Assembly (NCBI GenBank): GCA_026419785.1
Contig: JAODTK010002965.1
Location: 206,001 to 270,000 of the forward strand
Reading direction: 5' to 3'
DNA: 64,000 bases
DNA from: Sclerodactyla briareus
Lineage: Eukaryota; Echinodermata; Holothuroidea; Dendrochirotida; Sclerodactylidae
Below the pieces are notes generated by a model. The model did no database searches. It was not told the DNA's origin and saw only the letters and a program-made list of their open reading frames with translations. The position numbers and the translations under genes are program-made. Shown here piece after piece: positions 23,701 through 55,443 of this stretch. Each line of letters opens with the position of its first letter. The first letter of the stretch is position 1.

Positions 23701-26700
23701 TCCAGTTTGATGTCGATACACTAACATCATCACTATGATATGTCAATGTGAATGTAGCTCTGAAATACCTATTCTTTCCTGCATCATGTAAACATTATCC
23801 TATCTATTATTCTCCAGGTGTTGCCAGACAGTATTACCCTATTAACACAATTGGTCTAATTACAAAATTAGAAAAAAAATCACAAACCATCGAAATATTG
23901 ATTAATCTGCTAGAATGGATATCTTTAGGGAAGCATATTACTCTGAGATTTGTAGAAGATTGACAGTATATCAATGACCATTCTGGGCTGTTACTTCACA
24001 TTCAGTGTTCAAGCTTGGTATCCTATTAATAATTGATGGGAGCACCAAGGGGTTCAAATTACGCAGCCCTGAAAGTCAGAAAATGAGCACATTTCATGTA
24101 TCTAGTATGCAATGCATTGTAACAGCACAAAGGAGTTTCAATATGGTTGCTGAAAATGGGCCCTGCACTGTGTTGGAAACTGTTGGCATCGAAAGAATGC
24201 ACTTCAGCAGTGGTGAACTCATAAGGCATATACACAACATGGAACGAACCCGAAGGTACTAGGTAGTTTGAGCCTGAACAGTCAGTACCTGATTAACCTC
24301 ATACTCACCAATAGCTGAGAATTCCATACATGGCTTTTTAGGCTCCCTGATTGAAACAAAGGAAACATACAACTAGAATTACAATGTGAAGCAAAAGTAT
24401 GCCTCCATTTAAATTGGGCCTGAAGACTCCCACGCTATAGTGAGGAAAACAATCTGAATCCGTGTGAGAGTTCCACTTTCAAATTAATTAATTTTAATTC
24501 AAGAATTTGAACTAGATGTGTTTCTTTTTCATTTCATATATCTTATGCTTTTTGATGAGTCCCTATGTATATATCATTCCTATGCATGTTTTATAGTCTT
24601 TTACACATTCTATGTTCTAACCAAATGTGATTCTATGTACCGTCTTATGTGATTCTATTATCGTCTTATTCCTATGACTCTGTCCCATATGTTTTATTTT
24701 GCAGACATTTAATTTCCTTTCTGAGGAGGCAATAGTTTTTTTTATCTATCTATCTTTCGCTACAGTTGAAACTGACTCCCAGATGACCCTTGCTTCTGAA
24801 TTCCTGAACATATATGTACCATGGGTCACCGATGGCAATGACCACACAGGACCGGCTAGGCTGAGTGGGGTCGCCAGGTGTGCAGCACTCTTTCCTGCTG
24901 TTCTACAACCTCTCAGGTGGTACACAGTTTCAGTTAGAGAAATAATATAGTATGCCTCTATCGTGTAATGTAAAAAGTGTGTAAAAAGGTGGCAGGGAGC
25001 TAGGTCTATACGGACAGCATCATGATAGCTGCATCCTTAATATGTTCCTTTCCCAAATTTATCACCTGGAACAGAACTCCAAGGCCTCAGCTCGGCCCAG
25101 TCAAGACCAGAGGAATGCATGGCTCATTGAGATACTTGTGGGTAGGCCTGATAACCCTTGCAGATCCCACCAATCTGTTATTTTGTCTTCAGTGTGTGGG
25201 CTTTCATTGCTTCTTGTAGGGGTATATTCCATGTCATCCAAATTAATTTATACTACTAGCTTCTCCTCACTTCCAGCTGTGCAGTTGCTTTCATTGTGAG
25301 CCCGAGGCGCAGCCCTATTATCACTCCATGTCACCATGTCAGTTTGGTGTAGACGCTTCCCTAATCTGAGCTATGAGACACCCCAACTGCCTCTGAAACA
25401 TGTCAAACAAGAAGAAACTATCAAAGCCCCTAAACAGCTCTAGACAAGTCAATCCCTGAAGTGGGAATTGCACCCAGATTACTTACAATGAGACAATTCC
25501 AATTCATTCGATCATCAATGAAGTGCTTAACACTCAAGGCTCTCAATTCCCAAGTTGAGAAATCACACAATACAGACACCATCATCTAGTCTCTCCTGAG
25601 AGAGTTATAATAAGTGACATCTGAACAGAAAAAAAAGTTGGGGTATGAATTTCCCGTAAATTCTGAGTCTTGTTCTATACCCAAGGCTTCCTCAATGCTG
25701 CTGCCCACCACAAGATACTAGTCCATGTAAATCACAAAACATGAAATCAAGAAAACTGAACGGTTTTTTAATCTCGAACTACTAACTCCATGTTGGACCC
25801 TGCACCCCACCCAGGTGCCAGTGAACATCTGGCAATAACACAATGTTTGGGTTGGCCACCCCATTGCTCTTCTTTTTTGGCCAGCCTGAAGGTCTACATG
25901 TTGAGCATCTTGGCTTAAGATTCGGTCGAAAACTTCACTATCAAATCCATCATCAATCGTTACTAAGAAAGTTAGACCATGTAAATATACTACAGCCACA
26001 TACCAGGTATATCAGCAGTGGTGGGATGAAAGAACAATGTTTTTGGGGTTTTTTTTTTTTCATAAATGTAGCATCAAGAATTGCCCACTCACCAAAGCAT
26101 ACAAGTTTCCCACCCTGCTAGGACTGTAGAATACATGTGGTTGATGCGCCGCCATTGAACAGTATTCAATCAATCAATACACATGGCGACGGGTAAGAGA
26201 TGACGTTTATTGGTAACTACCAGTTGGGGACGATAGGCTTGTCTACTGGGCTCTGTACTACAGTAGAACCAACATTTTTTCTGCTTTCAAATTCCAAATT
26301 CTGCTCTATTCTGCTTCCTTCAGGATTTGCTCATCGATTTTGTACATAGGGAAAATGCTGTTTTCCGCTTCTTAAAAGTACAGAGCAGAAAACCTGATGG
26401 CTCTACCCATACCTACTCCCCAAAATGAAAGGATATGGACTTCCTCCCACTCTTTAGGACTAAGACCCCATCCCCCGCATGCCCACTGTTTACCTTGTAT
26501 CCCAGAGGTAGGTGTATGTATCCACAGAGCAAGTAGCCAGCAGGAAAGGGTCAAACCCTGACCAATTGAGGTCACTGTGAATAGAAGATACATGGACCGT
26601 TAGTAACAGATACCACACTGGAAAACAATAATCATTATACCCATGACAGTAAAACCTGTAGGTTGAGGCAATTATTGTTATGCATATGCCGAGACATTTA

Positions 26701-32700: not shown

Positions 32701-35700
32701 GCCATTGCTTCCTCGACTGATTCTTGCATTGATCGAGCTAAGCAATAGAGATCATTTACTTTTTATGGGGAACCCATACAGTATGAACTTGATCATCCAG
32801 GGATTTTCAATCTGACCCCCCCCCCGTTTACCGCAAAACACAGGGTTCCTGTACTCCTCATAAGAAGCTGCAATACCGAACCCAACCGATCAGACATGCA
32901 TTCTGACTATCCTTTAACACGATTTTTAGACTTTGACCCTCCTCCTTGACCTCAGAATGACCTTTGACCTGACCCCAAAGCAACAGGGAACATGTACCAT
33001 TATGGAGAACCCGGTATACCAAGTATGAACTGATCCATCAAAGTGGGGCGAGTTATCCCATGTTACGACTTAAACTTATCCTAATCATCACTTTTTTCAC
33101 AAGTTCACAATTTTTCCCCAAATCTGACCTCTGATTTACACTAAACAATCGGGTTCCTATACTCCTCATAAGAAAGCTGCATACCGAATTTGCAACCTGA
33201 TCAACCAGCCTTCGGCCCATTCTGGACTTCTCGACTGATCTTGACTTATCAGCTTAAGCACTAGGGAATGTATTCATTATGGGGGAACCCATACCAAGTA
33301 TGAACTTGATCCATCACGTGGAATTTTTTAAAATCTGACCCCTGATTTACCCCAAAACGAAAGGGTTCCTCTACTCCTCACAAGAAAGCTGCATACCGAT
33401 TCCAACCTGATCAGACCAGGCCATTCTGACTATCCTGTTGACAAATTTTATCATACTATGACCCATCTCTAGACCTCAATGACCTTTAACCTGACCCAAA
33501 CAATATGGATTATGTCTATCCTGGGGAACCCTATACCAAGTATGGACTTGATCCTCAAAGTGGGGGGGGAGTTATAATGTCAACGAGCTACAAATTGGCC
33601 AAATCATCCATTTTTTCCACAATTTCCCATTTTCTTCCCAAATCTGACCCCTGATTTAAAACACCAAACACATAGGCTTTTCTGTAATCCTCATACGCGC
33701 TCATACCAAATTTCCACTTGATCGATCAGGCATTCTCTAGAAACGTATCGTGTTAACAAGATTTCCCAGACTTTGACCTCTCTTGAGCACTCAGATTCCT
33801 TTTGCCCTGAACCACCAAACAATAAGTTATGAACTTGATCGATCCACATTGGGGGCGAGTTATTGTGTTGATAGCTAAATTTGCCAATTATTCTTTTTCA
33901 TATTTTCCATTTCTTCGCTGTCCCATTCTGACCCCTGATTTAACACTAGAAAACGATGGGGTTCTTGTACCCTGCATAGGAAAAGCTGCATACCTAATTT
34001 CACCCTGATCGGATCAGGCATTCTTTCCTGATCCGGTCACCACCATTTTTCAGACTTCTTGACCGTCTCCTTGACCTTAGTCTGCCCTTTGACCTGAACC
34101 CCAAACAATCGGGACATGTACTCATTATGGGGAACCCATATACCAGATAAGTTGATCGTTCAAGTGGGTTGATTATTGTGTTATCAAGCAGGTGTCACAC
34201 ACACACCCTGTCATACTTCAAACTCCTCTGACTTCGTCAAGGGAACAAAAAGTAATGTCATTTAGAGTTACATGACCGATGTAATTGCAAATATCAGCCT
34301 CTTCCTATTTGAATAATCACAGTCTCGATTGAAAAAGAACATATCATATATGGAGAAATCTAGGGCATGCCACATGAATGCTAATTGAGATAACACTCGC
34401 ATGTTACAACTATCAACCCTCATGACTGAGGGGATACTTACTCTGCATGCTCCTAACAGCAAAAGAGCACAAGGTGGGACGCCCAACGAACACTACCTAT
34501 TAGGGCTCACAAGACAAAGAGTAAAGTGTCTCCATGTTTTCAAGACATACAATGAACACCGCTTCGCTTTTAGTGGACTCATGGCAGGGGAGTGGGGATG
34601 GAATAGTGGGGGTTAAAAAAAAAATTTTTTTATTTTGTGTGACTCAAGTGACTGACTCATTTTAAAATATTCTCGAGTATTGATTCCGGACTTGAGTTGC
34701 TGTACTATTTCAACATCCAAGATATTTTCCCTCTGTTTTTGGAGTGGTGTCATGACAACATTGGTGCTGGAACAAGCAAACATTTCTGGAAATTAATAAC
34801 AGACCCTCTCAAATCAGGAACACACATTTATAAAAGTCTTTGCCGTACAGAGATCAAAACATTCACGGCCCAGCGAGGATGCATCAACCTGGATATTGCA
34901 CTTATCAACAGCTGCCAATCCCGCCCAGGTACACGGAAAAAGGCAATGCCTCTTTGGCTTCCCTTAAATTGGGGGCAATCACACGCAGACGGCAATTGCA
35001 ATTGCCTACCGCTTGTTGGTCCCTGCTCTGATCCCTTGTGCTGAGCGTCCAGCCAGAAGGCAAGACAGATACCATTTTTGAATCTTTGTGGTATAACCCC
35101 GCCCGGGATTCAACCCAGTCTCCGGGTGGAAGGCTAACGCTCTACCCCCAACTGGTCCAGCCACTCGTAAATCAATCTAATCACCGTCTAGTAAGTCCGG
35201 GAGTTATATTATGAAATTAACTTTGTGGCCACTTGCCAGTTTATCATGTATTGACCCCCACTGTACCAAGATAACACCAATTGGGGGCCGGGGGATGAAA
35301 CTCCCCAGCATTAATCAGCACAATTGCAACTAGATGCTGGCCCATGTGCTAATGAGATCGGAGACTGTATGCAGCCTACAACAATAAACAGTACTGAAGT
35401 CGCTGTAGGTAGATACCGTCACACAAATCGCTAATATGTCACATTGGTGTATGCTTTTCTGAATCTCCCCTTCTGCGTTGCGCTTACAATAGACAGAAAG
35501 AGGGGAGGGGGGCAAGCCATTAATGGGACATACGGATACGGTATGGTTCATACAGAATGCCAGCATCTAGCTTCCTAGCATGGTGCTGCCCCCTTAGCAG
35601 TGCTTTGGCACTGAATTAGGACTAACCCTCATAGAAAATGAGGACATACATAAATAACATACTGAGTGAAGTGAGAACATTTTTGACAATCAGTGCTGTT

Positions 35701-38700
35701 CGGTCCACTTGATGAGCTGAAGCTTTCTTTCTGCTGCTCACATTTGGTGGCAGTAGATCGATGCCTCTATAGACGGCCTGCCCTTCTCTGTCTGGCTGCT
35801 AGAGAAGAACACATCGAGGGGGAATCCTGTTATAGGAATGCTTCTTTGGCAACGGTCTGATCAAGATCATCCACACTACTGTCACGGTAACCTTCCCCGC
35901 GACATGATTGCAAAGTCTAACGTGCGATTCCTGTACATTGCTCTCTCACGAGGTGATTTCTTACTGCTGGTAGAATATCCTCTCCAAGGTGCCTTCCATG
36001 AGCAACGAGATGAAGTTCCTCTGAAGTCAGATGAAGGTGTGACAGAGCTATCCAATATACCAACAGGGGATGTGTTCTTTGCTCTATTCCATGATGTTGT
36101 ATCGGATGGTGCGAATGAATGTCTGCTATATCTCACATTCTTGCCATTCTGTGAGAGGTTGTTTATATCCACTGATCTTGTCTGAGGAGTCACCATCTAG
36201 CATCATACTGCTTCTAGTGACAAACGTTGAGCTGAGTATGCTAGAATCATCTCCAACAGAGTAGTCATGATGTGGGGTCTTGTCTATTAGAACATTGTTG
36301 CTCCTCCCAACCTTCATTATAACTTCCATATCACTGATAGGACTGACCTCTCTCATCATGAGACTTGGTTCATTCCACTCCAGTATACCAGGAGCTTCCC
36401 CGTGTAGAGATCAAGTCACCATTGGCTAAAGAATCACTGAGGAAATTCTCTCCTCTGGAAGACAAATGACCTTCTTCAACCTTCGCAAGAACATCCTCAA
36501 AGAACTCAGCCACAGAGAAGTCTGATCGTGATGCTGCATCGTCCTTATGGGGAGGCTGACGTGAGCTCTTCAAGCGTTCTACCAAGTCTTCTCTCCGGCG
36601 CTGTTTCTTGCAGATATCTCATCAGGGTCACACGCTTGCTGTAGTTGCGGCTGCGGAGCCTCTCCCCATACATGAAGGAAATCATGGATTCCGGGTGGGT
36701 GATATCCATCCGTTGGAGGATGCCCGATGAAGACCGTATGCCAGGCAGGGTCTGTTCAATGAGTCTTATCTGGTTATTAATCAAGCTCTCTGATCGCTGG
36801 CTCACCCTGTCGAAGACCTTCCTCCGTCCCAGAAGTCGGTTCTGTTCATTTCGATTCATTCGCTGTGCCTGCAGCTCGCTTGGCGTATTGTAGCCGAGCA
36901 CCCGGTGTTGGGACACTCGTTTAGCCGTCATAGTTCAAATATCGGCAATTGCAGCATTCCACGCCAAATGGTCCTCCAAGTAGTGTACAGATTCTGCCGA
37001 CTAAGCCATGCTGTTAACAAATTTGGCTATTGTGCTGTCCAAAAATGATGCTAGATCAAGTCTGACTCAACTGATGCTAAAAACAGATCACACAATTATC
37101 CAATGTATGGAATTTTTCTCTATGGAAAATAGGTAAAAATTTAGCCCCTGCAGGGGAAATTTGTAATTTCCAGAAGGCACTTCTTCTCAAATGCTCTGAT
37201 GTAGCCGTTCCCAAAATTCTTCAGGATGAACAGGTGTGAGCAACATATAGAAGAACATCAGTATATAATGGAGCACAATTGTGTAGTGAGCCCTGGCAAG
37301 CATACTAGACTGCACACCAGTCTATTTATGTATAGTTCTGTAGAGTTTGTTGAAAGGTTATACCCCATGCTCCCTGTGGGTCCATTCCATGACAGCCATC
37401 TGTCCTACTTTAAATCAAATGATCCAACTGGAAGATTATGACTACCGAAATACTGCCAAACTTGTAAATAGTACACAAGCAGCCAACAGCCATCATCCTT
37501 CAAATCCCTTCACAAGAAACCAAGAACACTCTTCTATTGGACTGACAGTTGTTGTAGTATACAGGCTCGAGAGGGAGACAATCATAGTCAGTACAGGTAT
37601 TTATTTCAGCTATGCGAGTAACACACTAAAAATAACCTCATAGGAAATACTTCAAACCACCCTGCATGTGCAGAAGTCAGAGTGTCAAGATTACCAGCCA
37701 TTTTTATTACCCCCAGGGCTCAACCACAGGTCAAGTTTTATTATGAAAATAGGCTCCCTGCTCAAATACAGCAAATGATCCTGCTACTACAGAATTGAGA
37801 TCTAAATTGGAAGTGATATTGAAGTGCCCATTTAATTAGGGTCAAATAACCAAATTCTTTGCCATTAAAGGGTCAGTGTAATGTAAGCCTAACTAGGTGA
37901 GGCTTTATGTTACATACAGAGCTTGCATCATGTGTTAATTACAATCCTGGTAGAGGGGGAGGGGGGTGTTATGACCCCAATATTTGAAAATCAACAATTG
38001 CCTTTCTAAGTTGATACAAAGTAACTTTTTGGGGTCATGTCACTCAAACACTTTCGACTAAATTCTTCTGAAGCTTGCAGGCAGATTTATGGTATGTGCA
38101 TTCCTGACAATTAGGTTCATCTGCCTAAGGTTCATATAAATTCCCATATGGGAGGAACTTATCCTCTGCCATACACAAAGGACTTCAGGTATTTGTGTTG
38201 CTAATAACTTCCCAACATGAAGATACCAAGACCGGGTGGAATCGCAAAATAATTTCCAATCCAGTGTGTGGGTCGAGGGCGCTAACTGAAACAAATTGCA
38301 TCATCAGCCACCTGACCAGGTGAACATGGAAAATTTATTGCAAAATACCACTGCTTAGAGCATAACACATATTGTGTGAGGTGAAGACCAAGACCTCGCC
38401 ATCGAAACTGCAAGTACAGCCACCTAGGACAACCAGAAAGCAAAAGGCTTAGTGATTCCTTGACTCTTTCTGACAACCCATAGCCAGACACAATGACAAA
38501 TGGGAGAGGAGCTCATCATGGGACACATATCATCTGACAATTTCACATTTTTCCCAACCAACCAATAGGGTTCCTATACTCTTGATAAGAAAGATACACA
38601 CTGAATTTCGAGATTTTCAGACTTTGACCTGAGTTTCATATAGCATGAAACCACCAACGGAAGTGTTGTATTAAATCACTTAATTTACAGGAAACAGACA

Positions 38701-41329
38701 AGTGGGTTCACTGCTAGTCTCGCCTTTTTGCGTGATCAGTGGTTGTTCCATTTCAGCTTTAGTATGGTTTAACTAACCTGATCTCAGAGGTAAAAGAGAG
38801 CAAATCACCAGATAGCAAAATCTAAAAGCATAGAGATTGATATATCTTGCCAGCCCCTGAGTGTGCTACCTATTAAAGGCCCTGACTACAGTAATCAGTG
38901 ACCAATTTCAAATTCAATTTAGGACTGATTGTTAAACATGTCTATTGAAGGAGGACAAAGTTTTTGGAAATGTGAGTAACATTGCGAATTTGACACATTA
39001 CAGGTACTGTTTATGCTTGATTTCTAGTGACCCATTCTCTAATTTTCAATATCTTAGGACCAATGCTGAACCACCTTGATACGTTTCATGGAAGTCTAAC
39101 AAACTTAGAACGTTGCATAAATTATGCAAATTAGACACACTGAATGACCTCCAGTGACCTACAATCTTAGTTTAAACAATTGGGACTGAGGGAAGACCAT
39201 AATCACTGAGTTTTGTAAAGAAAACTGACAAATTCCAATATAAACTCGATATTTGGAGTATTTTATGCTGAAAACCTAATCAGTCCATGTGTCGGACCAT
39301 ATCACTATAGCACTAAGATTCATTTGTAATCTTGTTAACAAGCCTAAACAATCAATTCCATAATTACTTATTTAGTTAGTTCGAGACCAAAATCTATCAG
39401 GGTATTACACCGCCAACCCAGGTACTACATACAAAATTTAATCGAAATTGGTCTCACCATTTTGGAGAAATCCTGGTAAAACAAGAAAGCCATAAGGCTT
39501 AGTGATTCCTTGACTCTTTCTGACAACCCATAGCCAGACACAATGACAAATGGGAGAGGAGCTCATCATGGGAACCATATTCATCTGCAAATTTCACATT
39601 TTTCCCAACCAACCAATAGGGTTCCTATACTCTTGATAAGATAGCTACACACTAATTTCAAGGATTTCAGACTTGGCCTTCTGGTGACCTCGAAACAATA
39701 AGGTTCATACTCACATGACCTCTGACCTGACCCCAAATGATAGGGTTCAAGTTTACTCATCATGGGGAACACACCTACCATGTATGAGCTTGCATCCATT
39801 CAGGTGGGGTCTAGTAATTGTGTTCAAAGCCTTAATTTGGCCAAAACATTGACTTTTCACACATTTCCCTTTTCGACTAAAATTACCCCTAACCTATCCA
39901 AAGGTCAGGGTACTCACCATAGGGAAGCTACACACCATGCAACCGAATCAGATTAACCATTCTGGACTTATCGTTTCACAAGGTTTTCCAGACTTTTACC
40001 TCTGGTGACCTCAGATGACCTCTGACCTGCCCCCAAAACAAATGGGTTCATGTACTCATCATGGGGAAACACCACATACCAATTCTGAGCGTCCCCATCC
40101 AGGTGGGGTAGAGTTATCGTGTTCACAAGCCGAAATGGCTACAATATGACTTTCCACAAATTTCCTACTTTTTCACTAAAATTCAACCCCGACCTATACC
40201 AGACACAATAGAGTTCCCGTATTTCCCATAAGAGAGCTACACACTAAATGAAGAACCTGACAACCAACCATTCTGGACTTATTGTGTTCACAGGTTTTCA
40301 CACTTGAACCTGGGGCGACCTCAATGACCTCTGACCTGACCCCAAAACACGAGGGTTCATGTACTCATCATGGGGAACACACTACCAAGTAATTAGCTTC
40401 ATCCATCCAGGTGGGTCCGAGTTCTCATGGTTTCACAGCCAAATTGACCAATTATTAACTTTTCACAATTTCCTTTTTTGGACCAAAATCACCCCCGACC
40501 TATACCTGAAACAATAGGTTTCCTGTACCCCCATAAAAAAGCCCACACCCAATTTGAACACGATCAAACCAACCGTTCTACTTATTGTGTTCAAGTTTTC
40601 AGAATTTGACTCTGGTGACCTCATATGACCTCGCACCTGACGCCACAAAACAATAGGTTCGTGGTACCATCATGGGGAATACCATCCAAGTATAAAAAAA
40701 AAAAAAAAAGCTTCATCCATCCAGGTGGGGTCGGTTATCATGTTTCACAAGCCAATTGCCAAATTATTAACTTTTCACAAATATTTTCCTTTTTTGGGAA
40801 GGACGCAAAATTCCAATCATCATCCATCACAACTCCACGGAACCAAATTCAACCCCCGACCTATACTGACAACACTAGGGTTTCCCTGTCCTGTACTCCC
40901 CATAAGAAGCTCCACCACCAAATTGAACACGATCAAACCAACGCTTCTTGGGACTTTTTGCTGTTCTACAAGGTTTTTTCATACTTTGACCATCTGGTGA
41001 CCTCAATGACCTCTTACCTGACACAAAACATAGGTTCGTGTACCTTCATGGGGAAATACACATACCAAGTATGAGCTTCTCCATACCGGTGGGTCAAGTG
41101 ATGGTCACAAGCCCAAAAATTGGCCAAATTATTGCTTTCAGAAATTTCCATTTGACCAAAATTCACTCCTGACCGAACCAAAAAAACAATAGGGTTCTCC
41201 TTAGATGACCTCGACCTGACCCCAAAACGAAGGGTTTTCAGGTACTCTCATGGCGGAAACACCACATTACCAAGTATGAGCTTCACCCATCAGGTGGGGA
41301 GAGTTATTTAGCGTTTAGAGTTTTTTTTT

Positions 41330-41381
<52 letters not shown>

Positions 41382-47300: not shown

Positions 47301-50300
47301 CGATGACCTCTTGACCTGACCCAAAACAATAGGGTTCAGTTTACTCATCACGGGGAACACACATACCAAGTCAATGAGCTTCATCCATCCAGGTGGGTAG
47401 GTGATTGTGTCCAAGCCAGCGTTACATACCACATACACCCGCACACACACACACACATCATGACTGCAAGATTCCTCTGACTTCGTCTCGAAGAAAAAAT
47501 GTGGGTCATACACCCACAACGAACACGCACACACCCGTGTCATGTAAGGGCCACATTGTATTAACAGCCCCCAAACCGAGGAACATTGTCGATTGAAGAG
47601 TATATGTGTTTCCACTATAATCCAAGGTTTACATTGCCAAACTGAGGAGGACGAACACTAATACCATCAAACTGTTGGATGACAAACCAGCATGACCGGG
47701 CCCATGCCCCACCAAGGACTGCATGACCACAATTGATACTGAATGGTGTTATTCATACGAACGTTCGACACTGTTACTTGTTACACACGCACCAATGCAC
47801 ACCAAGAGTGATTGCACATCATTTCTGAACTTGTTAGGCAAGATAAAAACAGTTTCCAGCTCCAAAAAATACTATGTTTTTTACTCAAATGTTCATTGTA
47901 TTTGAAAGTTGAGAGATTTGGACTGCGAGCATATATAATTATCATGCTTGTCAAAAATATTTTGAAAGGGGCCAACACAGGTCTGTGATGACTTTTGTGA
48001 CAATTCTACCATATATTGACACCAAGGTGATTTTTTCAGCTGGAAGCCCGGCTCTGTTTGGCACCCCTGAGCAGCGTTGGACAACCTTGAGCTGCTAAAA
48101 AACTCTCATACTTGTTGGGAAATTGTACACTGAATTTCATGTTCTCACAAAATGGAGCCTGTTTCATCCTCACTAAAATCGCCCCTATGTCGCAACATTG
48201 AGCGTAGCATACAGTCAAACTGTACGGTGTGGATATTGCTGCATGAACATGAACCCGTGAACAAACGTCATATTTGAATAGGCTCATTCACAGATTTGTG
48301 ATTTCTGTTCAGGTGTAAAATTGCTTGTCATATATGGTAACATGATTCCAATACATTCACACAGAAATGACATGTTCCAACAACATTTTTTTCACCCTGC
48401 AATTCAATTCTTTCACCCAAATTTTACTGGGGTGAAAGAAATGGTTGACATCAGGCTGAGTTAAAAGAAAGAATTTAAAACTCACAGAAAGACAGAGGAC
48501 AAATTAAACTGATCCATAGTAATAAAGTACAGTTGTGAGTCATAGATTCTATTTATGTATGAATAAGTTGACTCCAGTATATCACACACACCCCCCACAA
48601 TAGAATCAGATTGATCGAAAGCATGAATTCCAGTGAAATTCTTTAGAATTTTAAATAACAGGGGGGGGGGGGGGGGGGCCTATTCTGAAACATATTTCAA
48701 ATCAGGAACAGCCTGTGTGGGCGTTATAAGAAGCCGGCAGAATTGATTGAGAGAATGATTCCATGGATGAAAAAAAAGTGAAGTTCATTATTGTCAAAGA
48801 TCAACATAATATTCTCCAGCCATAGTGTGACACCCCCCCCCCCTTCGCAGTTACGCATGCGTGGAACTGATTGAAAAAGTAACCGAATCTCCCAGCACGC
48901 GTAGTCCTTATTACCTTACTGTAGAATTGTTACTGATCTTGAGTCAGCGAATTTCAGACTTGTGTGGCTTTTTACTATATAGTCAGCAAATTTTTTCACT
49001 CCAGTGTGAATTTTTATATTAGGATGCCAGATAGTCATATAAATTTTCAAAAAAAAAAACTCATATCCTTTATTTAGGTTCCGTCATCGGTATAATGTCC
49101 TTCCAAACTGTAGATGCAACTAACGATGAATGACTTCAAGTAAATATCTTATGTAAGTCTGATCATATCTGTCCTTCCAGGAATGAGAATGCAGCTAACA
49201 ATGGATGAACTCTAAAGTGGTACTACAGACTGGACATGTATATCTGCTGTCACAAGATCAAACTCAGCTGTGAAAGATGGCTCCGTCCCCCGAGGCAACG
49301 CCTGAGCCCATCCACTGATGGCAGGTCTGACTTGCTCTTACGGAGCAAACACTTTTCAGGAAAGTCCGGCGTGCCGGTTCCGAATTGCACTTGGGCCTAT
49401 AATACGAGAGGCCAAACGGTTCTGTGCCTCCCGTCCTGTCGGCGGACCTCCTCAGTTCCACCGGTCGCCAGCGGTTTCCTGCAATCCGGCAGGACACACG
49501 TCACACAAAGCTTAGGGAGGCTCTGGATGTGGTATTCTCCAGACTGGGGGTCACTAGTGGGCATAGAGCCAGCTTGTGGACATCTTCCATCCTTGATGAA
49601 ACTTCTGCTTGGATGCCTTCAGCCTCATCATCCGTATCTCTGCTTGGAGTTGCGTCGACCGGATCTTTGCACAAGATGATGTTCTCTACCTTACGAACCA
49701 GCAGCTTCTCCTCAGTCATTCAGTTCTTCAGAATCGGCGAGAACTAGGCCAATGGGCCGTGTAACTAGTCACCCTGATAGGGCAAGCATTTCACTGCTAC
49801 AGGCTTTGAAATTTGTGTTACAATGATACGGATGTGTCACAACAGTATTGATTTCATCAGGGAAGATGACCACCATTATCCCTTTCTCTGATTTTGTCCA
49901 GAATATCCTCACAGAATGACATCAAGGTTCCACACAAATTCGAGCAATAGAATGGCTTTGTTTCATTCTTTATACAATAGATTATTCTCTTGAACATTAA
50001 TCCATTTGAATCATCACGGGTCTACGACTGTATGTTCTCCTCTATATTCTCTGGTAGATTATCTCTATCTCATTTTAGGCAAGTTTTAAGCTATTTTCAC
50101 AGAATTACTATTGTTCAACTAACCAAAGAATCCCCGAAAAATGAAGTAGCATATTCCACCAACCGAGAAGAATATGTTAAATTCAATTGTGTTAGTGCTG
50201 AACTTATAGCTGCCACTGTAACAGCGATCTGAGTTGCCCAATTTGATGACCATGTTTCAGTTTCAGCCAAACTTTTCCACAAGATGATCGCCTCCCGATG

Positions 50301-53300: not shown

Positions 53301-55443
53301 GCTCCTCAAATGTGCAGGATTGTTATACACTTTTGGACACGCAATTGCATAAAGCAGTCAGTTTGCAATAAAACTATAGACAGCATATGTCTTTTCTACC
53401 ATTCCAAATTGCTACACGAATGTCTGACACTATTTCAAATGCTGTACATTACTGTTCTTAACATGTACAGTAACAACTAAGTCATATGAACATCAGTACA
53501 GAACTATATACATGTATAGCACCCCCTAACTCTTCAGTGACATTTTTCACACCTGCGGGTGATATGAGGAAAGAAAAAACTAAAACTGAATTCACAAAAT
53601 ACCTGAAAAGATTTTTTGCATATCAGCTGATTATGCCCCCATATGCCATTCCACCCTAAAACCCTGTGCACCCTGAACAAGGTACCACTAGTCCATGACA
53701 TCACTGATCAACCTAGAGGTTGTCTATCTGCGAGCTGCAATTCGATAGTGATAGGTGTTTTCTAGATTGCAATCTTGCCGCACGTCGGGTTCAAATTTCT
53801 TCGTGGACTCGGAGTTGAGTACAAAGTTCAGCTCTTCAATCATAAACAGTGCAGAAACTGCATACAGTGGGTTACGCTGTATGTTGTTTAAAATCACGGT
53901 AGACACTCAGCCTCTGATTCAAACTATTTCGTTTTGCGTTGCTCTGACTATGTAGTATCGGAGGATTCGCCATTATGATGTCACTGACCTGATTTAGGAG
54001 AATGTTTATTGAACAACAAAAAATTGACGTAAAACTTCATTTTTTCTGAGTTCTTTTTATACTTTCTCGAGTTGTTTTTATGAATGGCGATAAAAACAAG
54101 GGTGCCTCAGTCTTTTGCATTTAAAACCTCTGAAGACGTCATCGTAGAGGCAAAACCCCTCGCCTTCGGCTCAGGGTTTTAAGCTCCACGATGACGTCAT
54201 CATCGGTCTTAAATACACGAACGACCTCAGCACCCTCGTATTTATCCCCTAAAATGGAGGGTTAAAAAAGAGTGTGCCAATCGGAACAATAGCAGCTGTA
54301 TACTGAGAATTTTGTAGCTCTGGTAAATCAATTCAATGACACTTCAGAGGTTCTAAATTGACTGTTTACAAAGTACTCAGCCCAGATAGCAACCTTCGTA
54401 AATGTATTAAAACAAGGAGAGAAACAAGCAATTTAGTTTTACTGCAGGGGGTTTGGCAGCTAAACACTGTGAATGACACACTGAGATTATAATATCCATT
54501 AGCATCAGTGGCTCCGAGCTGATCTATGCAGCTTTGCAATCAGGCACCAGACTATGCTACAGTCTGACTGATAATGATTACAATTCTCTTGTCAAGCCTT
54601 ACATTTCAAGTAAATCTGGGAAGTTACTTTGCAAGGTTGTAGTGCATGATCCAACATGAGGTGAAGTGAACGAGTGAAGTTAGTTATCAGATTTTTGTGT
54701 CCAACAGAAGGGAAAAAGTTGGGTAACCCCCATAACTTTTATACACATAGGTAGCGTTGTCTGTGTCAATGTGAAATGGCCCAGAAACATGAGCGTTACT
54801 GTGTTTACTGCATTGCAGAAAACTCACGTGAAACCAAAAGCCTACTGAGTCTCTTTGACTATTTGTACCAAGTGGTTGGCACAGTTGTAGAGGGGGCCTT
54901 CCACCCGGGGAGACCGGGGTTTGATATCCTGGTCGGGTCATACCAAAGACTTCAAAATGGGTACCCGCTGGCCTCTCGCGGACGCTCAGCACAAGGGATT
55001 GGAGCAGGGACAAACAAGGGGTAGGCAATTTGCAAGTTGCTGTCTGCGTGTGAATACCCCCACCCCACATTAAGGTACCGCCAAAGAGGCATTGCCCTAT
55101 CCATGTACCTGGTGAGGGATTCGCAGCTATCAATAGGTGCAGTATCCAGGTCTGCTCCTTGTTGGGCTGATAGGGTTGATCTCTGCTCGGCAAGTATACC
55201 ATAAAAATATATATATAAAAAATGCAAGTAGACATGAACCCTGCTGTATCATACATAGATGGGCAGGATCAGTCATTGTTGTAATTACAGAATATAAATA
55301 TGATGACGATTCCTAACCCTGCTCCATTGTGAGCATATGACACAATGATTGACTAACCTGATCACCCTTGTGTGTGCCTTTAGGGTGAGGTCGAGGGTCC
55401 ATTCATCAGAGCTGGATGTGTAGATCTCAGCAACTTGATTAGA
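2557..55443 (-). CDS. WDR59: WDR59-like GATOR2 subunit, partial multi-exon gene (overall span)
   Basis: WDR59 is a subunit of GATOR2 (with WDR24, MIOS, SEH1L and SEC13), which relays amino-acid sufficiency to mTORC1 at the lysosome. Thirteen minus-strand exons were found in protein order: 55358-55443, 26494-26574, 24309-24346, 21493-21580, 18508-18630, 16667-16743, 14160-14319, 13145-13224, 12174-12443, 9952-10119, 8954-9022, 5393-5524 and 2557-2700. Each has AG/GT borders. The translated pieces follow vertebrate WDR59 from the propeller (HTRVI, VDTY, QVKWN, NGLDW, TGHED, QLVTWSRD) through the RWD domain to the YYKE segment. The first exons (Met start, WDIGAVQW-type blade) and the C-terminal zinc-binding exons are absent. 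Four spots break the frame, so the gene is either miscalled at single bases or decaying. The clean splice phases elsewhere favour a functional gene with assembly errors. Confidence 0.93.
3507..3944 (-). CDS. Unassigned open frame, 145 codons
   Basis: This is the longest open frame in the left third of the window and is more GC-rich than its surroundings. The predicted peptide has a proline patch (LVLPPPPRIEGEW) and a Trp-rich stretch (WVDDWYQQWD). I do not recognise a family. No splice sites or promoter were evident. It sits in a WDR59 intron on the same strand and may be a transposon remnant or a chance frame. Confidence 0.2.
   Translation of the reverse strand: MCSLPVHNPVRSRCYLPAATKTVPLDKLNLTFLSTMDGTCSLDGAALLVLPPPPRIEGEWSASGLIAWVDDWYQQWDCLLAVRYQERSLPHLTLYGIQAAILQSMACRVFVFDCNSPMSTFTSKWLFGFLGGGFLADTGGTHSIQ
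4550..4860 (-). mobile_element. tRNA-derived SINE, family A, copy 1
   Basis: Read on the minus strand, the element starts with a tRNA-like head (about 4857-4770) containing GGTAGAGCATCAGG and a perfect B box, GGTTCGATTCC. A body follows with the block TGCCAAAGAGGCATTGCC. The same head-plus-body order recurs at 34850-35168 (minus) and 54869-55190 (plus), which defines a dispersed family of about 310 bp. Sea urchins are known to carry tRNA-like SINEs, but I cannot assign this to a named family. Confidence 0.8.
5393..5524 (-). CDS. WDR59: WDR59 exon: TNIPFPKTCGARFC
   Basis: The acceptor TTGCTTTCCAG lies just before 5524. The best donor is GTAAGC after 5393 (132 nt, 44 codons, phase 0 at both ends); GTGTAG and GTAGTA, a few bases upstream, are alternatives. 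The peptide contains TYGSMYDTNIPFPK and CGARFC, matching vertebrate AYGSYQDANIPFPR and SGARFC. The 90-bp tandem array begins only about 20 bases beyond the acceptor. The likely branch point CTGAT therefore lies in its first repeat unit. Confidence 0.92.
5546..6066. repeat. 90-bp tandem repeat, about six copies
   Basis: The motif TGTTAATCAGGAGATAT recurs at 5546, 5636, 5726, 5816, 5906 and 5996, an exact 90-base spacing. Copies share the blocks ATAAAGCTCTCTCACTGGTC and CCATTAATGGATTAATGCAA with only a few percent differences. The array abuts the 3' splice site of the WDR59 exon at 5393-5524. Confidence 0.95.
6160..6905 (+). repeat. tRNA-like 87-bp tandem array, about eight to nine units
   Basis: Units start near GGTGGTAGTG at 6333, 6421, 6511, 6598, 6684, 6769 and 6856, after less regular units from 6160. 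Most contain TAGTGTAATGG, which fits the pol III A-box pattern TRGYNNANNNG. About 40 bases later they contain GGTTCAATTCC or GGTTCAATCCC, close to the B box. The unit therefore resembles a tRNA-derived sequence amplified in tandem. Acceptor-stem pairing is not obvious, so functional tRNA genes are unlikely. Confidence 0.8.
6906..8953. other. WDR59 intron with G-rich tracts
   Basis: No recognised gene. G-rich tracts occur at 7102-7157 (mixed G/T), 7362-7383 (about 22 uninterrupted Gs) and 8190-8210. An open frame of 92 codons at 7618-7896 on the plus strand has no recognised domain and is probably chance. Confidence 0.6.
8954..9022 (-). CDS. WDR59: WDR59 exon: end of RWD domain (GQPCIEACIKQ)
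   Basis: Acceptor TTTATTCCAG and donor GTAAGT frame a 69-nt, 23-codon exon. The peptide reads VETGQPCIEACIKQ followed by FSALMGGIV. Vertebrate WDR59 has VKRGQSCLEPCLRQLVSCLESFV at the same place, the last helix of the RWD domain. It joins the next exon (5393-5524) in phase 0. About nine residues expected between this exon and 9952-10119 (ILKDTALQK in vertebrates) were not found. Either a microexon was missed or the loop is shorter. Confidence 0.92.
9203..9541 (-). pseudogene. Non-LTR retrotransposon reverse-transcriptase fragment
   Basis: The minus-strand frame of 112 codons begins with LQDWSEKWLLNFHPE, a typical segment downstream of the catalytic motifs in CR1/L2-type reverse transcriptases. 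It ends with the characteristic tail HTWNSLPSVIQ. About 100 residues that should lie between the two are missing, so this is an internally deleted remnant. It lies inside a WDR59 intron. Confidence 0.75.
9863..9925 (-). pseudogene. Decayed partial copy of the WDR59 RWD exon
   Basis: This stretch repeats part of the exon at 9952-10119. CCTTCAGGGGGTATAC is identical to 10023-10038, and the following 40 bases match at roughly 70 percent (AAGATTATCATCAGTCCAG versus AAGATCAGCATCAGTTCAG). It sits 26 bases 3' of the exon in gene orientation and has no intact splice pair. Confidence 0.7.
9952..10119 (-). CDS. WDR59: WDR59 exon: RWD domain core
   Basis: Acceptor TTTCCTTCCAG and donor GTAATA delimit 168 nt (56 codons, phase 0 to 0). 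The peptide contains DKVNRTCLLICTNN, LMLIFPDVYPLKAIPQF and SITQDTLIK. The corresponding vertebrate segments are AADRSCTVSV, MLVKFPAQYPNNAAPSF and TMKAKLLK. The F-P-x-x-Y-P signature is the hallmark of RWD folds. A decayed partial duplicate lies immediately downstream. Confidence 0.95.
10372..10435 (+). repeat. tRNA-like element
   Basis: The sequence starts GGGGACTGTAGCTCAGTCAG and continues to a B-box-like GTTTGAACCC, the spacing of a tRNA head. The 3' part does not pair with the start, so this is a tRNA-derived repeat head and not a gene. A C-rich run follows at 10568-10582. Confidence 0.55.
11150..12063 (+). mobile_element. Dispersed composite repeat, near full-length copy
   Basis: The head (GCAAGGCGATTGCCCC and GTTGTGCGATCAGG) recurs at 14537 and, diverged, at 38700. 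The body carries paired blocks of the ATAAATTATGCAAATTAGAC type next to TGACCTCCAGTGA. The tail has GGAGGAATCCTGCTAACGAG, a (CA)n run and AAAGTGATCGCTAAGTCTC. The tail recurs at 16200-16330 (diverged), 21335-21450 and 30590-30700. No coding capacity is visible, so it is probably a non-autonomous element. Confidence 0.65.
12174..12443 (-). CDS. WDR59: WDR59 exon: linker and start of RWD
   Basis: Acceptor ATATTTTCAG and donor GTAGGT flank a 270-nt exon (90 codons, phase 0). It begins LCGVETPDILD, where vertebrates have LCANDILD. A Ser/Gly/Pro-rich linker follows. The end is LSLEQELERLTIPVPDVMVDK, which corresponds to the QTLQQEFSLINVQI start of the RWD domain. A degraded copy of its 5' half lies at 12499-12613. 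Confidence 0.93.
12499..12613 (-). pseudogene. Tandem decayed copy of the 5' half of the WDR59 linker exon
   Basis: The block GGTACCAGTACCGGATGAGA and most of the next 95 bases repeat positions 12330-12443, 170 bases away. The match includes the acceptor sequence TATTTTCAG. In the parental frame the copy reads LDILDMHQTTSDDSE and then a stop. It has an in-frame stop and small indels and no matching donor, so it appears to be a dead exon duplicate that keeps a 3' splice site. Confidence 0.85.
12715..12995. repeat. 20-bp minisatellite (TGTCCAACCATGTAGCC)
   Basis: About 13 degenerate units of TGTCCAACCATGTAGCCTTA are arranged head to tail in the intron between the exons at 12174-12443 and 13145-13224. 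On the minus strand they happen to leave an open frame rich in TWLD and GHKAT, a by-product of the repeat. Confidence 0.9.
13145..13224 (-). CDS. WDR59: WDR59 exon: last propeller blade (QLVTWSRD)
   Basis: Acceptor TTCTCCCAG and donor GTAGGT enclose 80 nt. With two bases completing a split Cys codon, the peptide reads ASDYQLVTWSRDKKLFVWRV then EPHIQR. Vertebrates have KDYQLVTWSRDQTLRMWRVD and SQMQR. Phase matches both neighbours exactly (1 on entry, 0 on exit). This is the strongest single match in the window. Confidence 0.97.
13225..14159. other. WDR59 intron
   Basis: Two related pieces with ACAACTGTTACCATAGCAAC occur near 13620 and 13885, suggesting a small duplicated repeat. A T-run followed by a G-run lies at 14002-14022. 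No gene was seen. Confidence 0.55.
14160..14319 (-). CDS. WDR59: WDR59 exon: PFGDG..TGHED..WRK blade
   Basis: Acceptor TCTTGACAG before 14319 and donor GTAAGC after 14160 give 160 nt (53 codons plus one base). It reads PFGDGILTLMLPQ, MLFLWSQSNLS, VFSFTGHEDNILDFAWRK. Vertebrates have PFSNGLVTVMVPQ, LLLWNVFDLN and VHTFVGHDDVVLEFQWRK. The open frame continues past the donor to 14086, but the phase requires the donor at 14159. Confidence 0.95.
14520..16330 (+). repeat. Dispersed-repeat cluster (composite repeat family)
   Basis: A head copy at 14537-14760 (CAAGGCGACCGCCCCAGTGT and TTACAAGGCATTTGATG) matches 11160-11390. From about 15000 a second copy of the body carries the GCATAAATTATGCAAAT and TTCATGAGGATTC motifs. 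It ends in a (GGACAGAC)n-type stretch at 16240-16280 and ACAAAGTGACCACTATGTCT. No gene was seen. Confidence 0.6.
16667..16743 (-). CDS. WDR59: WDR59 exon: SPLWRIRYA blade
   Basis: Acceptor TTTTTGTTGCAG and donor GTAAGC define 77 nt. The peptide is WDIADSGKLKDGL then RTESPLWRIRYA, against vertebrate WDYRQPRKYLNIL and PCQVPVWKARYT. It joins the next exon (14160-14319) in phase 0. On the 5' side the frame needs one extra base: the upstream exon ends in phase 0, but this one begins with AT TGG. One base has probably been lost here, or the upstream exon is off by one. Confidence 0.88.
17225..17700 (+). mobile_element. SINE-like element, family B, copy 1
   Basis: The head has GGGATCAGTGACGCTTTGCA and a B-box-like GGTTCAGATTCC. 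The body has GGGTGAGGTCTTGATCA, GCGGGTATTTGCAACGTCC, GTGAGCAGTCA and GAGCAGGTTGGGATTGATTA, ending GAGCCTGGACATAGCTTCTT. The same order appears on the minus strand at 20835-21290. Confidence 0.8.
17701..18085. other. Intron, no recognised content
   Basis: AT-rich sequence with an 85-codon chance frame on the minus strand (17707-17964). I see no motif or repeat that I can name. Confidence 0.5.
18090..18360. repeat. 20-bp minisatellite (ACCCAATCGAGTGATC)
   Basis: About a dozen degenerate units of ATCTACCCAATCGAGTGATC run head to tail, ending about 150 bases from the WDR59 exon at 18508-18630. Confidence 0.85.
18508..18630 (-). CDS. WDR59: WDR59 exon: NGLDWSPTEENHLATAAQD blade, with in-frame TAA
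   Basis: Acceptor ATTTTGCAG and donor GTGAGC delimit 123 nt (41 codons, phase 0). The N-terminal part, KGNRLSQCIYAH, aligns with vertebrate KPSTAVEYLAAH. The C-terminal part, NGLDWSPTEENHLATAAQD then GTAK, aligns with HGLDWHPDSEHILATSSQD and NSVK. Between them the same frame contains a TAA at 18583-18585 and two extra codons. If six bases were inserted by error, an LKIN reading (compare LSKIH) could be restored. A true nonsense change cannot be excluded. Confidence 0.88.
18640..20110. other. WDR59 intron, unassigned
   Basis: No recognisable exon or named repeat. Short frames at 18767-18970 and 19811-20083 have no known similarity. A piece at 20015-20045 (AACCAGAAAGCCAAAAGGCT) resembles the start of the direct repeat at 38434 and 39480. 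Confidence 0.5.
20114..20173. repeat. Short near-perfect hairpin
   Basis: Two 24-base arms (20114-20137 and 20150-20173) built on GCTCTCTCTCGCCTACACTC pair with a single mismatch, around a 12-base loop. It lies within a WDR59 intron. It may be a foldback element or a structured RNA segment. Confidence 0.9.
20230..20470 (+). repeat. Single dispersed copy of the satellite monomer
   Basis: The blocks TTGACCTCAGATGATCTTTG, CAATAGGGAACATGTACTCA, TCATGGGGAAC and AGCTCAATCCATCCAGATGG appear in the same order as in the units of the 39.7-47.4 kb array. Confidence 0.8.
20835..21290 (-). mobile_element. SINE-like element, family B, copy 2
   Basis: This is the reverse complement of the element at 17225-17700. 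It has a GGTTCAAATCC B box near 21225 and the blocks GGTGAGGTCTTGGTCTTCAC, GAGCAGTCACTTGAACTG and GAGCAGGTTGGGATTGG. The last 30 bases (20800-20830) read GATTTGATTTGATTT, a simple tail typical of SINE 3' ends. Confidence 0.8.
21335..21455 (+). repeat. Composite-repeat tail with (CA)n
   Basis: GGAGGAATCCTGCTAATGGG is followed by mixed ACACAC runs to 21423 and then a tail like that of the copy at 11150-12063. Confidence 0.7.
21493..21580 (-). CDS. WDR59: WDR59 exon: QVKWNKKNGDIIATVHEGGI blade, one base short
   Basis: Acceptor CTCCTTTCAG precedes 21580 and donor GTATCA follows 21493 (88 nt). It reads QVKWNKKNGDIIATVHEGGI then RLWDKR, against vertebrate QVKWNKKNANCLATSHDGDV and RIWDKR. The preceding microexon leaves one base (G). 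With it the exon opens GCT GGT GCC (AGA, as in vertebrate AGASQVKWN) and must then lose a base before CAA. This points to a one-base deletion at 21568-21571. Using a cryptic AG (GGCAAG) ahead of TCAAATGG would keep frame but drop four to five residues. Confidence 0.93.
21778..22137 (+). mobile_element. Left arm of a large inverted repeat
   Basis: AT-rich arm with TATTATCAGGAAGAAATATA, AATATGTTTCGATGGAGAAA, AATAAGTTTCCCAATG and TTTCATTTGCAACAAATAAT in order. The reverse complement of 23087-23660 has the same blocks in the same order. Together with a core of about 950 bp, the two arms form a structure of about 1.9 kb resembling a DNA transposon with long terminal inverted repeats. Confidence 0.85.
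22138..23086. other. Core between the inverted-repeat arms
   Basis: The core is less AT-rich than the arms. It has frames of 77-98 codons on both strands (22163-22396, 22237-22530, 22547-22843), none recognised as a transposase. A nested palindrome (ATGGCACAGAATGTTAGACA and its near-complement) lies at 22822-22935. It may be the remnant of an element's coding region or an unrelated filler. Confidence 0.45.
23087..23660 (-). mobile_element. Right arm of the large inverted repeat
   Basis: This is the reverse complement of the left arm (21778-22137). It is about 200 bp longer because of extra 25-35-bp degenerate units with GTTGCAAACA and AATATATTTTT. It faces the left arm across the core. Confidence 0.85.
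24309..24346 (-). CDS. WDR59: WDR59 38-nt microexon (EPKKPCMEFSAI)
   Basis: Acceptor TTGTTTCAATCAG and donor GTGAGT flank only 38 nt. One base completes the Arg codon left by the exon at 26494-26574. Twelve codons follow, EPKKPCMEFSAI, and one base is carried to the next exon. Vertebrate WDR59 has DTRKPTVALSAV at this position, so length and pattern fit. It is too short to be seen by ordinary open-frame methods. Confidence 0.9.
24347..26493. other. WDR59 intron
   Basis: No recognised exon. Frames at 24005-24262, 24699-24950 and 25718-25999 lack known similarity. The minus frame at 25718-25999 contains VTIDDGFDSEVFDRIL, which I cannot place. T-run at 26050-26060. Confidence 0.5.
26494..26574 (-). 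CDS. WDR59: WDR59 exon: DLNWSGFDPFLLATCSVDTY blade
   Basis: Acceptor CTATTCACAG and donor GTAAAC enclose 81 nt. The first base completes a Ser codon with the AG of the exon at 55358-55443, giving VIS then DLNW, exactly as in vertebrate VISDLDW. It continues SGFDPFLLATCSVDTYTYLW, against vertebrate FEPDLLVTSSVDTYIYIW. The upstream exon lies 28.8 kb away. Confidence 0.96.
26966..27170 (+). pseudogene. LINE reverse-transcriptase fragment (LVRPYLEYSVQV)
   Basis: FLDKDIVVRLFKQLVRPYLE then YSVQV, after a stop ASIENIQWRAAKSI, and in another frame YEERLRRLGL. This series is typical of the C-terminal part of CR1/L2-type reverse transcriptases (LVRPxLEYxxxVW, IExVQRRATKLI, YEERLRxLGL). A stop and a frame change show it is dead. 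Confidence 0.85.
27171..28480 (+). repeat. Diverged dispersed repeat, 27.4-28.4 kb
   Basis: A GC-rich start (27415-27460, Arg/Gly-rich on the minus strand) is followed by four or so diverged units. Each contains CACCAAACTTGGTAGGTGGG or a variant, GACTATATTGGTCCTGAA, GTGAAGGTCA and AATTTGCATAATT. Unit length is roughly 115-240 bp. Confidence 0.6.
28765..28870 (+). pseudogene. LINE C-terminal fragment (VNEWNSLP)
   Basis: VNEWNSLPLKIL and, after a one-base change of frame, SKRVIAFKNYLEPFSR match the common end of CR1-like ORF2 proteins (WNSLPxxIV..S..V..FK..L). It could belong to the same insertion as 26966-27170, disrupted by the 27.2-28.5 kb repeat. Confidence 0.7.
28871..30115. other. Intronic stretch, nothing recognised
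   Basis: Moderately C-rich on the plus strand between 29040 and 29950, with overlapping frames of 70-90 codons and no recognised family. Might be a decayed element. Confidence 0.45.
30120..30720 (+). mobile_element. Composite dispersed repeat, 3' part
   Basis: ATAAATTATGCAATTAGACT, CATTATGCAAATTACATTT, GTTTTGGAGAAATCCTGCTG, a (CA)n run at 30630-30682 and AAAGTGATCGCTAGTCTCTT follow the same order as at 11600-12060. Confidence 0.75.
30721..32090. other. Intronic stretch with a G/C-run hairpin
   Basis: A run of about 12 Gs, eight Ts, four As, a short spacer and about 11 Cs at 31284-31323 can fold back on itself. A G14 run lies at 32090-32104. No gene was recognised. Confidence 0.6.
32105..34200 (+). 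repeat. Diverged satellite-related units, 32.1-34.2 kb
   Basis: About six diverged units relate to the 39.7-47.4 kb array: GACCTTTGACCTGACCCCAA at about 32960, GGGTTCCTATACTCCTCATA at about 33150, and ACTCATTATGGGGAACCCAT at about 34110. A non-repeat segment at 32330-32755 carries a 111-codon plus-strand frame (32413-32748) of unknown nature. Confidence 0.75.
34850..35168 (-). mobile_element. tRNA-derived SINE, family A, copy 2
   Basis: It shares GGCAATGCCTCTTTGGC, CAATCACACGCAGACGGCAA and the tRNA-like head (TCTCCGGGTGGAAGGCTAAC) with the copies at 4550 and 54869. The B box is degraded (GGGTTGAATCCC on the minus strand). Confidence 0.8.
35169..35829. other. Intron between SINE and nested frame
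   Basis: No repeat recognised. On the minus strand 35740-35845 stays open in one frame (ITGFPLDVFFSSSQTE), so the coding region at 35830-36931 might extend to here if a further frame shift exists. Confidence 0.4.
35830..36931 (-). CDS. Nested intronless reading frame, about 365 codons, four one-base shifts
   Basis: The minus strand starts with an ATG at 36929-36931 and reads MTAKRVSQHRVLGYNTPSEL, then an Arg-rich, coiled-coil-like stretch (RRKVFDRVSQRSE) and MYGERLRSRNYSKRV. It continues in the next frame as RRREDLVERLKSSRQPPH and FSVAEFFEDVLAKVEEG, then EAPGILEWNEPSLMMREVSP, then RSVDINNLSQNGKNVRYSR and finally SSVDDLDQTVAKEAFL with a TAA at 35830. Each of four shifts (near 36613, 36399, 36178, 35892) needs removal of one base. 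The corrected length (1098 nt) is exactly 366 codons. The product is basic at the N end, Ser-rich and polar later, with no membrane segment. I do not recognise the family. It lies wholly inside the 28.8-kb WDR59 intron on the same strand. Confidence 0.62.
36932..38430. other. Intron, no recognised content
   Basis: Small open frames on both strands without known similarity. A short G-rich run occurs near 37957. Nothing else seen. Confidence 0.5.
38434..38640 (+). repeat. Direct repeat, copy 1 (about 200 bp)
   Basis: GGCTTAGTGATTCCTTGACT, GGGAGAGGAGCTCATCATGG and AATAGGGTTCCTATACTCTT are shared with 39480-39690 at about 95 percent identity, 1045 bases apart. Confidence 0.9.
38690..39478 (+). 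mobile_element. Composite dispersed repeat between the direct repeats
   Basis: The head (TGCGTGATCAGTGG), body (AATTATGCAAATTAGACACA, ATGACCTCCAGTGACC) and tail (CATTTTGGAGAAATCCTGGT) follow the order of the copy at 11150-12063, but the (CA)n tail is absent. It is flanked by the direct repeats at 38434 and 39480. Confidence 0.7.
39480..39690 (+). repeat. Direct repeat, copy 2, joining the satellite
   Basis: Near-identical to 38434-38640. Its 3' part (CAATAGGGTTCCTATACTC, CTACACAC) is already satellite sequence, so the large array begins within it. Confidence 0.9.
39691..47400 (+). repeat. Satellite array, unit about 310 bp, about 25 units
   Basis: Units run: GACTTTGACCTCTGGTGACC, ACCTCTGACCTGACCCC, AACAATAGGGTTCATGTACT, CATCATGGGGAACACACATA, CCAAGTATGAGCTTCATCCA, GGTGGGGTCGAGTTATCG, TTCACAAGCC, CTTTTCACAAATTTCC, CACCCCCGACCTATACC, TACTCCCCATAAGAAAGCT, ACCAACCATTCTGGACTTAT. 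Spacing of the ACCTGACCCC block is mostly 300-320, with some shortened units of about 210-250 (near 41215, 43055, 43913, 45722). Open frames here are by-products. Indels between units are very frequent. Confidence 0.95.
41321..41377. repeat. T-run of 57 bases inside the satellite
   Basis: A nearly uninterrupted run of T with one C at 41342 interrupts one satellite unit between GTTTAGAG and ATGTGTTCACAGCC. It could be an inserted poly(A) tail on the minus strand or an assembly artefact. Confidence 0.9.
47401..49260. other. Intron with simple repeats
   Basis: Two small (CA)-rich patches lie at 47430-47455 and 47520-47535. A G18 run lies at 48661-48678. An A-run is at 49050-49060 and a C-run at 48832-48843. 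No gene was recognised. Confidence 0.6.
49262..49722 (-). CDS. Candidate coding segment, unassigned
   Basis: Unusually GC-rich for this window. The minus frame beginning with ATG at 49719 reads EEKLLVRKVENIILCKDPVD and DDEAEGIQAEVSSRMEDVH (72 codons, stop at 49501). A shifted frame continues TCVLPDCRKPLATGG, CLLRKSKSDLPSVDGLRRCL. The acidic middle and lack of repeats look like coding sequence with a frame error. The plus strand also has open frames, so strand is not certain. No family recognised. Confidence 0.3.
49990..52160 (-). other. Low-repeat interval with scattered open frames
   Basis: Several minus-strand frames are open here: 50586-50948 (120 codons, Leu/Ile-rich), 51318-51602 and 51754-52155 (133 codons, with VEAAFLKGHVLCNLKKHLHA). 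Another stretch near 50130-50320 reads AIHREAIILWKSLAETETW. The third frame faintly recalls the AFLxG..LKKxLxGL pattern of copia-type reverse transcriptases, but the match is too weak to call. It could be exons of an unknown gene or a decayed transposon. Confidence 0.3.
52161..54080. other. Intron, no recognised gene
   Basis: Positions 52985-53080 resemble the CATGACTGCATAGATTCCTC tail also present at 31481 and 47459. Frames at 52507-52758 and 53724-53906 show no known similarity. Confidence 0.5.
54085..54250. mobile_element. Foldback (MITE-like) palindrome with CRE-type sites
   Basis: Two arms of about 80 bases meet at CGCCTTCGGC (54161-54170). The left arm reads GCGATAAAAACAAGGGTGCC, GCATTTAAAACC, AGACGTCATCGTAGAGG. 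The right arm's reverse complement reads GGGATAAATACGAGGGTGCT, GTATTTAAGACC, TGACGTCATCGTGGAG. The whole could form a long hairpin. It contains the perfect octamer TGACGTCA (54192-54199), the CREB/ATF consensus, plus a near copy in the left arm. Confidence 0.9.
54869..55190 (+). mobile_element. tRNA-derived SINE, family A, copy 3
   Basis: The head on the plus strand has TGGCACAGTTG (a perfect A-box pattern), GGGGCCTTCCACCCGGGGAG and GGTTTGATATCC, then GGTCGGGTCATACCAAAGAC. The body has ACGCTCAGCACAAGGGATTG, TGTCTGCGTGTGAATACCCC and GCCAAAGAGGCATTGCCCTA. Its 3' end is about 165 bases from the WDR59 exon at 55358. Confidence 0.85.
55358..55443 (-). CDS. WDR59: WDR59 exon: SNQVAEIY..KAHTRVI (most 5' exon found)
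   Basis: Acceptor CCAATGTAG before 55443 and donor GTTAGT after 55358 give 86 nt. It reads SNQVAEIYTSSSDEW then LDLTLKAHTRVI. Vertebrate WDR59 has SNQRVDLYKWKDGSGEV and TTLQGHTRVI. The two leftover bases (AG) join T of the exon at 26574 to make Ser, restoring VISDLNW. Exons upstream of this one (Met start and the WDIGAVQW blade) were not found up to 64000. Confidence 0.93.

Follow-up and report, generated by a model that had tools for sequence, protein, structure and literature searches.

The 64,000-nucleotide stretch of the Sclerodactyla briareus genome analysed here (the window; contig JAODTK010002965.1, positions 206,001 to 270,000) carries on its minus strand a series of five open reading frames, designated pieces A to E, which overlap end to end, every frame lying one base off its predecessor. 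The frames of the locus are as follows:

36548..36931, minus strand: piece A, an ATG-initiated open frame of 128 codons, basic, with a long N-terminal helix predicted
36373..36618, minus strand: piece B, the open frame after A; A and B overlap by 71 nt
36129..36410, minus strand: piece C, the open frame after B, overlapping B
35885..36196, minus strand: piece D, a Ser-rich open frame
35830..35913, minus strand: piece E, a short final frame with the stop codon TAA at 35832-35830
35625..35798, minus strand: an extra downstream open frame that has a hydrophobic end; reaching it takes additional frame switches

The original prediction had described consecutive minus-strand frames at this place, and reading of the frames in the sequence confirmed both the description and the coordinates. 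From stop to stop, the open frame of piece A spans 36548-36934. The segment 36931-35830 comprises 1102 nt, which after subtraction of four bases leaves 1098 nt, corresponding to 365 codons and a stop; the frequency of frame breaks is about one per 275 nt. The argument that the corrected length is an exact multiple of three is circular, as the number of deleted bases was picked to fit. Four C or G in a row occur in three of the four overlaps, as a plain count read in the sequence. Membership of the frame at 35625..35798 in the candidate is doubtful.

The candidate is located in an intron of about 28.8 kb (55357-26575) of a gene on the same strand, the exons of which we take to be those of WDR59, based on an approximate sequence of the human protein. 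The flanking exons are:

55358..55443, minus strand: 3' part of a WDR59 exon, codons ~81-108, with the donor GTTAGT next to it; recognized by tblastn (E 0.49) and the splice junction
26494..26574, minus strand: next WDR59 exon, codons ~109-137, preceded by the acceptor CAG; recognized by tblastn and the splice junction

In tblastn searches this human WDR59 query matched five places in the window, all on the minus strand. The block 55443-55360 (codons 81-108) is weak by itself (E 0.49); the block 26576-26487 corresponds to codons 109-138. The junction flanking the intron, read directly, is canonical, with the donor GTTAGT starting from 55357, an acceptor CAG, and a codon split into AG and T, the T being at 26574. 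Exons on either side, matching splice sites and the split codon thus bear out the predicted same-strand placement within a WDR59 intron. Part of the intron, at 39955-47418, is occupied by several blocks of tandem repeats of about 310 nt. Translations of 34830-35140 and 54955-55268, inspected by eye, share phrases ('AMPLW', 'SHAD') in opposite orientation; these segments, one of which lies just 3' of the candidate, are perhaps copies of an interspersed element.

Codon usage was evaluated with a table derived from 48 of 60 exon matches (2,968 codons), the 12 matches containing stops being left out. Piece A showed a synonymous-codon z of 2.48, the fourth highest among the 311 window ORFs of at least 60 aa; the WDR59-exon ORFs had values of 2.17, 2.14, and 2.11, and a probable WDR59-exon ORF 1.78. 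None of the three ORFs outranking piece A is a known gene. The best GC block, 36505-36927 (GC 0.537 inside vs 0.451 and 0.406 outside; as judged by fit), begins beside the ATG of piece A and ends beyond its frame, extending about 45 nt into piece B. A block at 36505-37011 fits nearly as well, and among the 381-nt stretches of the window 36549-36929 ranks third in GC content. The GC content of B-E is ordinary, 20% of equal-length windows being as high. Piece B looks protein-like by eye, but is without codon signal; the synonymous signal of piece C is weak (z 1.4), and in piece D a competing frame outscores D's own in the codon model. Among pieces A-E, coding-like codon usage and GC content are confined to piece A, and the coding evidence, itself modest, is limited to the first ~128 codons. 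The DNA of piece A, scored by the codon model with stops ignored, reached 17.0 in another sense frame, 15.7 in an antisense frame, and 13.5 in its own frame; comparison of the codon score of piece A with dinucleotide shuffles gave p 0.066.

A coding score tolerating frameshifts was calculated at two shift penalties and is expressed as the number of shuffles reaching the observed value. The score of piece A was reached by 21 and 8 of 300 shuffles, that of the whole candidate by 51 and 66, that of its antisense by 33 and 91, and that of B-E by 211 and 153. The segment just upstream, 37300-36932, is on par with piece A (13 and 15 of 300). As for the controls, actin was reached by 0 of 300 shuffles and the probable WDR59 exon by 26 and 14 of 300, indicating that the shuffle test has low power for ordinary exons. 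One of nine other window segments scored as controls, 53000-54100 (minus strand), was reached by only 0 and 4 of 100 shuffles. In the segment 36932-37011 (minus strand) the GC content is still high 5' of the ATG, 37011 being the edge of the second-best block; read in the frame of the ATG, it appears protein-like by eye, with a stop two codons ahead of the ATG.

The same WDR59 intron contains a further stretch with coding-like properties:

49250..49750, both strands score, minus strand better: GC-rich (GC 0.54), coding-like, single-copy stretch with broken frames

Read on the minus strand, 49750-49250 had a frameshift-tolerant score reached by 14 and 3 of 300 shuffles. No Pfam match was found for the stretch, which possibly represents another exon or gene. 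The main rival to a protein running from A to E is that only piece A, perhaps together with adjacent bases, is coding, as an exon of a multi-exon nested gene to which 49.25-49.75 kb might contribute another exon, with B-E being intron or UTR. The coding signal and the GC block, both of which end near 36505, and the presence of this second stretch, which if on the minus strand would lie 5' of piece A, all fit such an exon. However, no GT near the end of piece A looks by eye like a strong splice donor, an in-frame stop occurs just ahead of the ATG, piece B has its protein-like appearance, and the GC block enters B. We consider an exon confined to piece A unlikely, if still a serious competitor.

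The length of the candidate by itself is not beyond chance, because simulated strands with four free switches hold paths as long. With up to four frame switches, the longest minus-strand open path of the window, 35885-37024, comprises 1140 nt, but paths of at least 1140 nt were also reached in 3 of 12 simulated 64-kb strands (second-order Markov, four free switches, one strand each). When 4 kb was simulated at the local composition, 3 of 30 runs gave a path longer than 1098 nt. With a path length within chance and B-E lacking a coding signal, the 365-codon frame of the original prediction is not demonstrated.

Searches of Pfam, NCBIfam, PHROGs (pieces A-D), and solved structures did not reveal any significant family match for the candidate, in agreement with its initial classification as a member of an unknown family. 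The best weak hits, each to another piece or stretch, were Mto2_bdg (0.093), NrtR_WHD (0.11), DCAF4 propeller (0.078), FxsC (0.14), and phrog_7931 (0.051). A local weak similarity of residues 77-118 to the winged-helix domain of NrtR/AraR proteins (PF21906; PDB 5bs6), which are bacterial regulators, was discarded as being at chance level (E 0.11 and 0.37, or 1.8 with joined pieces), far under the family cut-off (13 vs 27 bits). The helix of piece A seemed to us reminiscent of CCDC190 (Pfam PF15768). With the CCDC190 profile nothing was matched at E<=10 in the animal's own genome, but control genomes were silent as well, which makes this result uninformative; CCDC190 was absent from the Pfam scan listings of the candidate. 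AlphaFold2 modelling of piece A alone, from the single sequence, predicted a helix at 17-61, confident in its first part only (mean pLDDT 56, low elsewhere). Five pattern matches were obtained with piece A as query against viral contigs, with no relative among them. Rfam at gathering scores and a tRNA scan gave no significant result for the window.

Searches of the animal's own genome covered 319 Mb in 3,171 contigs. They returned no second copy but only the candidate itself, both with the whole region as DNA and at the protein level with piece A (E<=0.001) and piece C (E<=10); the protein-level search covered A and C and scored the best candidates alone. A chance series of open frames in a mildly GC-rich intron stretch, without any gene, would be consistent with the absence of a significant family or structure match and of a paralogue in these searches, with the length attainable by four free switches, with the missing signal of the whole candidate and of B-E, and with the equally good scores of other readings of the piece A DNA. 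On the other hand, codon bias, GC block, and ATG all fall together on piece A, which argues against mere chance; we rate the absence of a gene as rather improbable.

The assembly is rich in indels. An actin gene (L033, G000:C1260), matched by a human actin query in eight blocks of 73-100% identity, six of them at 84-97%, has four frame changes inside continuous exons over ~1.15 kb. Another actin gene (L035, G000:C2792) shows one frame change inside a conserved exon; three further actin matches (L034, likewise on G000:C2792, L028, and L031) are broken too, and could be pseudogenes. The 7tm_1 GPCR family is represented by 126 matches in the genome, among which 19 pairs of collinear, abutting or overlapping pieces in different frames were counted on 17 contigs (from 41 neighbouring matches; gap <=80 nt). 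Abutting pieces in the same frame did not occur, as is to be expected since same-frame neighbours would merge into one match, and two wider-spaced same-frame pairs (C2927, C2186) were left out of the count. A bias towards inserted bases, hinted at by actin L033, was dropped as an assumption, the GPCR breaks being split 9 to 10. The window itself provides a control:

18508..18630, minus strand: WDR59 exon whose alignment improves when a frame change is permitted; serves as a control for assembly indels inside the window

This exon scored 85 with frame changes and 68 without, compared to values of up to 46 in 40 base shuffles with changes allowed. The frame change is at ~18577; another, less certain one is at the exon edge. 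The remaining four WDR59 blocks are unbroken, short tblastn blocks being biased towards unbroken matches.

In an assembly this rich in indels, a break per ~275 nt is no demonstration of decay, and the proposal that the frame breaks of the candidate are assembly errors is compatible with the breaks in actin, GPCRs, and the WDR59 exon. A decayed pseudogene, in which the frame breaks would be real mutations, might be suspected because the breaks are dense and the 3' two thirds show no codon signal, but the same type of break in the actin gene, many GPCRs, and the WDR59 exon, together with the failure to find a functional parent copy in the genome, makes decay quite improbable. Gene predictions from this assembly record will come out fragmented.

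The locus was also inspected for marks of a retrocopy or mobile element. Flanking it at distances of hundreds of bases are three imperfect pairs of short repeats (16-18 nt, 83-89%), of a size often due to chance and none of them abutting the frame: two direct repeats of 18 nt (35202/37734 and 34213/37647; the search covered repeats of 14 nt or more) and a single short inverted pair spanning the locus (34502/37279; 16 nt, 88%). An A run of more than five is absent in 35829-35500, and the closest AATAAA downstream of the candidate is at 34634. No multi-exon parent gene was found elsewhere in the genome (A and C as protein; region as DNA), and no element or viral family match was better than E 0.05 (Pfam; PHROGs, pieces A-D; viral contigs, piece A). 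Despite a seemingly intronless frame inside an intron and the distant flanking repeats, the suggested origin as a retrocopy or domesticated element, be it a transposon or a viral gene, is therefore very improbable, given a genome search that returned only the candidate itself and the lack of convincing terminal repeats, of a long A run, and of significant relatives in the viral, phage, and Pfam searches.

The explanation we tentatively prefer, at somewhat less than an even chance, is that the WDR59 intron harbours a nested, same-strand host gene of an ordinary kind, or the first coding exon of such a gene, with frames broken by assembly errors. It is favoured because of the codon usage of piece A, the GC block by its ATG, the lack of a strong donor, and the occurrence of comparable breaks in genes that should be real; it is weakened by a length in the chance range, the silence of B-E, rival frames and an upstream stretch that score as well or better, and the failure of the searches to find a homologue. 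Translation of such a gene would begin at the ATG at 36931, and the frame would be interrupted by erroneous single-base indels left in the assembly by poor polishing, rather than by mutation in the animal's gene. If A to E form one protein and the gene is expressed, the product would possess a basic, helical (coiled-coil-like) start followed by a Ser-rich tail which is probably disordered. Judging from composition only, the most likely role might be that of an adaptor or scaffold pairing via the helix. A more specific form of the nested-gene explanation, which we regard as possible though not likely, is a family outside Pfam whose protein would combine a basic coiled coil at the N terminus with a Ser-rich tail. 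Its gene, nested in WDR59 on the same strand, would perhaps have a second exon at 49.25-49.75 kb, and the family would be either lineage-restricted or diverging so fast as to be beyond the libraries used.

If the nested-gene explanation is true, the gene list of this animal would have to be corrected, with the warning that intact genes in this assembly may resemble pseudogenes. Nested genes are a known kind, and one further case is of local interest; a greater significance would arise only if the protein turned out to represent an undescribed family with conservation among related animals.

Both elements of the preferred explanation resemble known systems. Indel errors in long-read assemblies are described in PMC12007338 to fragment genes; as in that system, the frame breaks found here are scattered through otherwise conserved genes. 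The genomes treated there are small and a curated comparison set is available for them, whereas here the data consist of a single assembly. With respect to gene arrangement, Drosophila 2mit, according to PMC3786989, is nested in an intron of tim2, and the candidate gene likewise lies entirely within the intron of another gene. In contrast to 2mit, which is a characterised gene on the strand opposite to tim2, the candidate is on the same strand as WDR59 and is known from sequence alone, its frame being supported in part.
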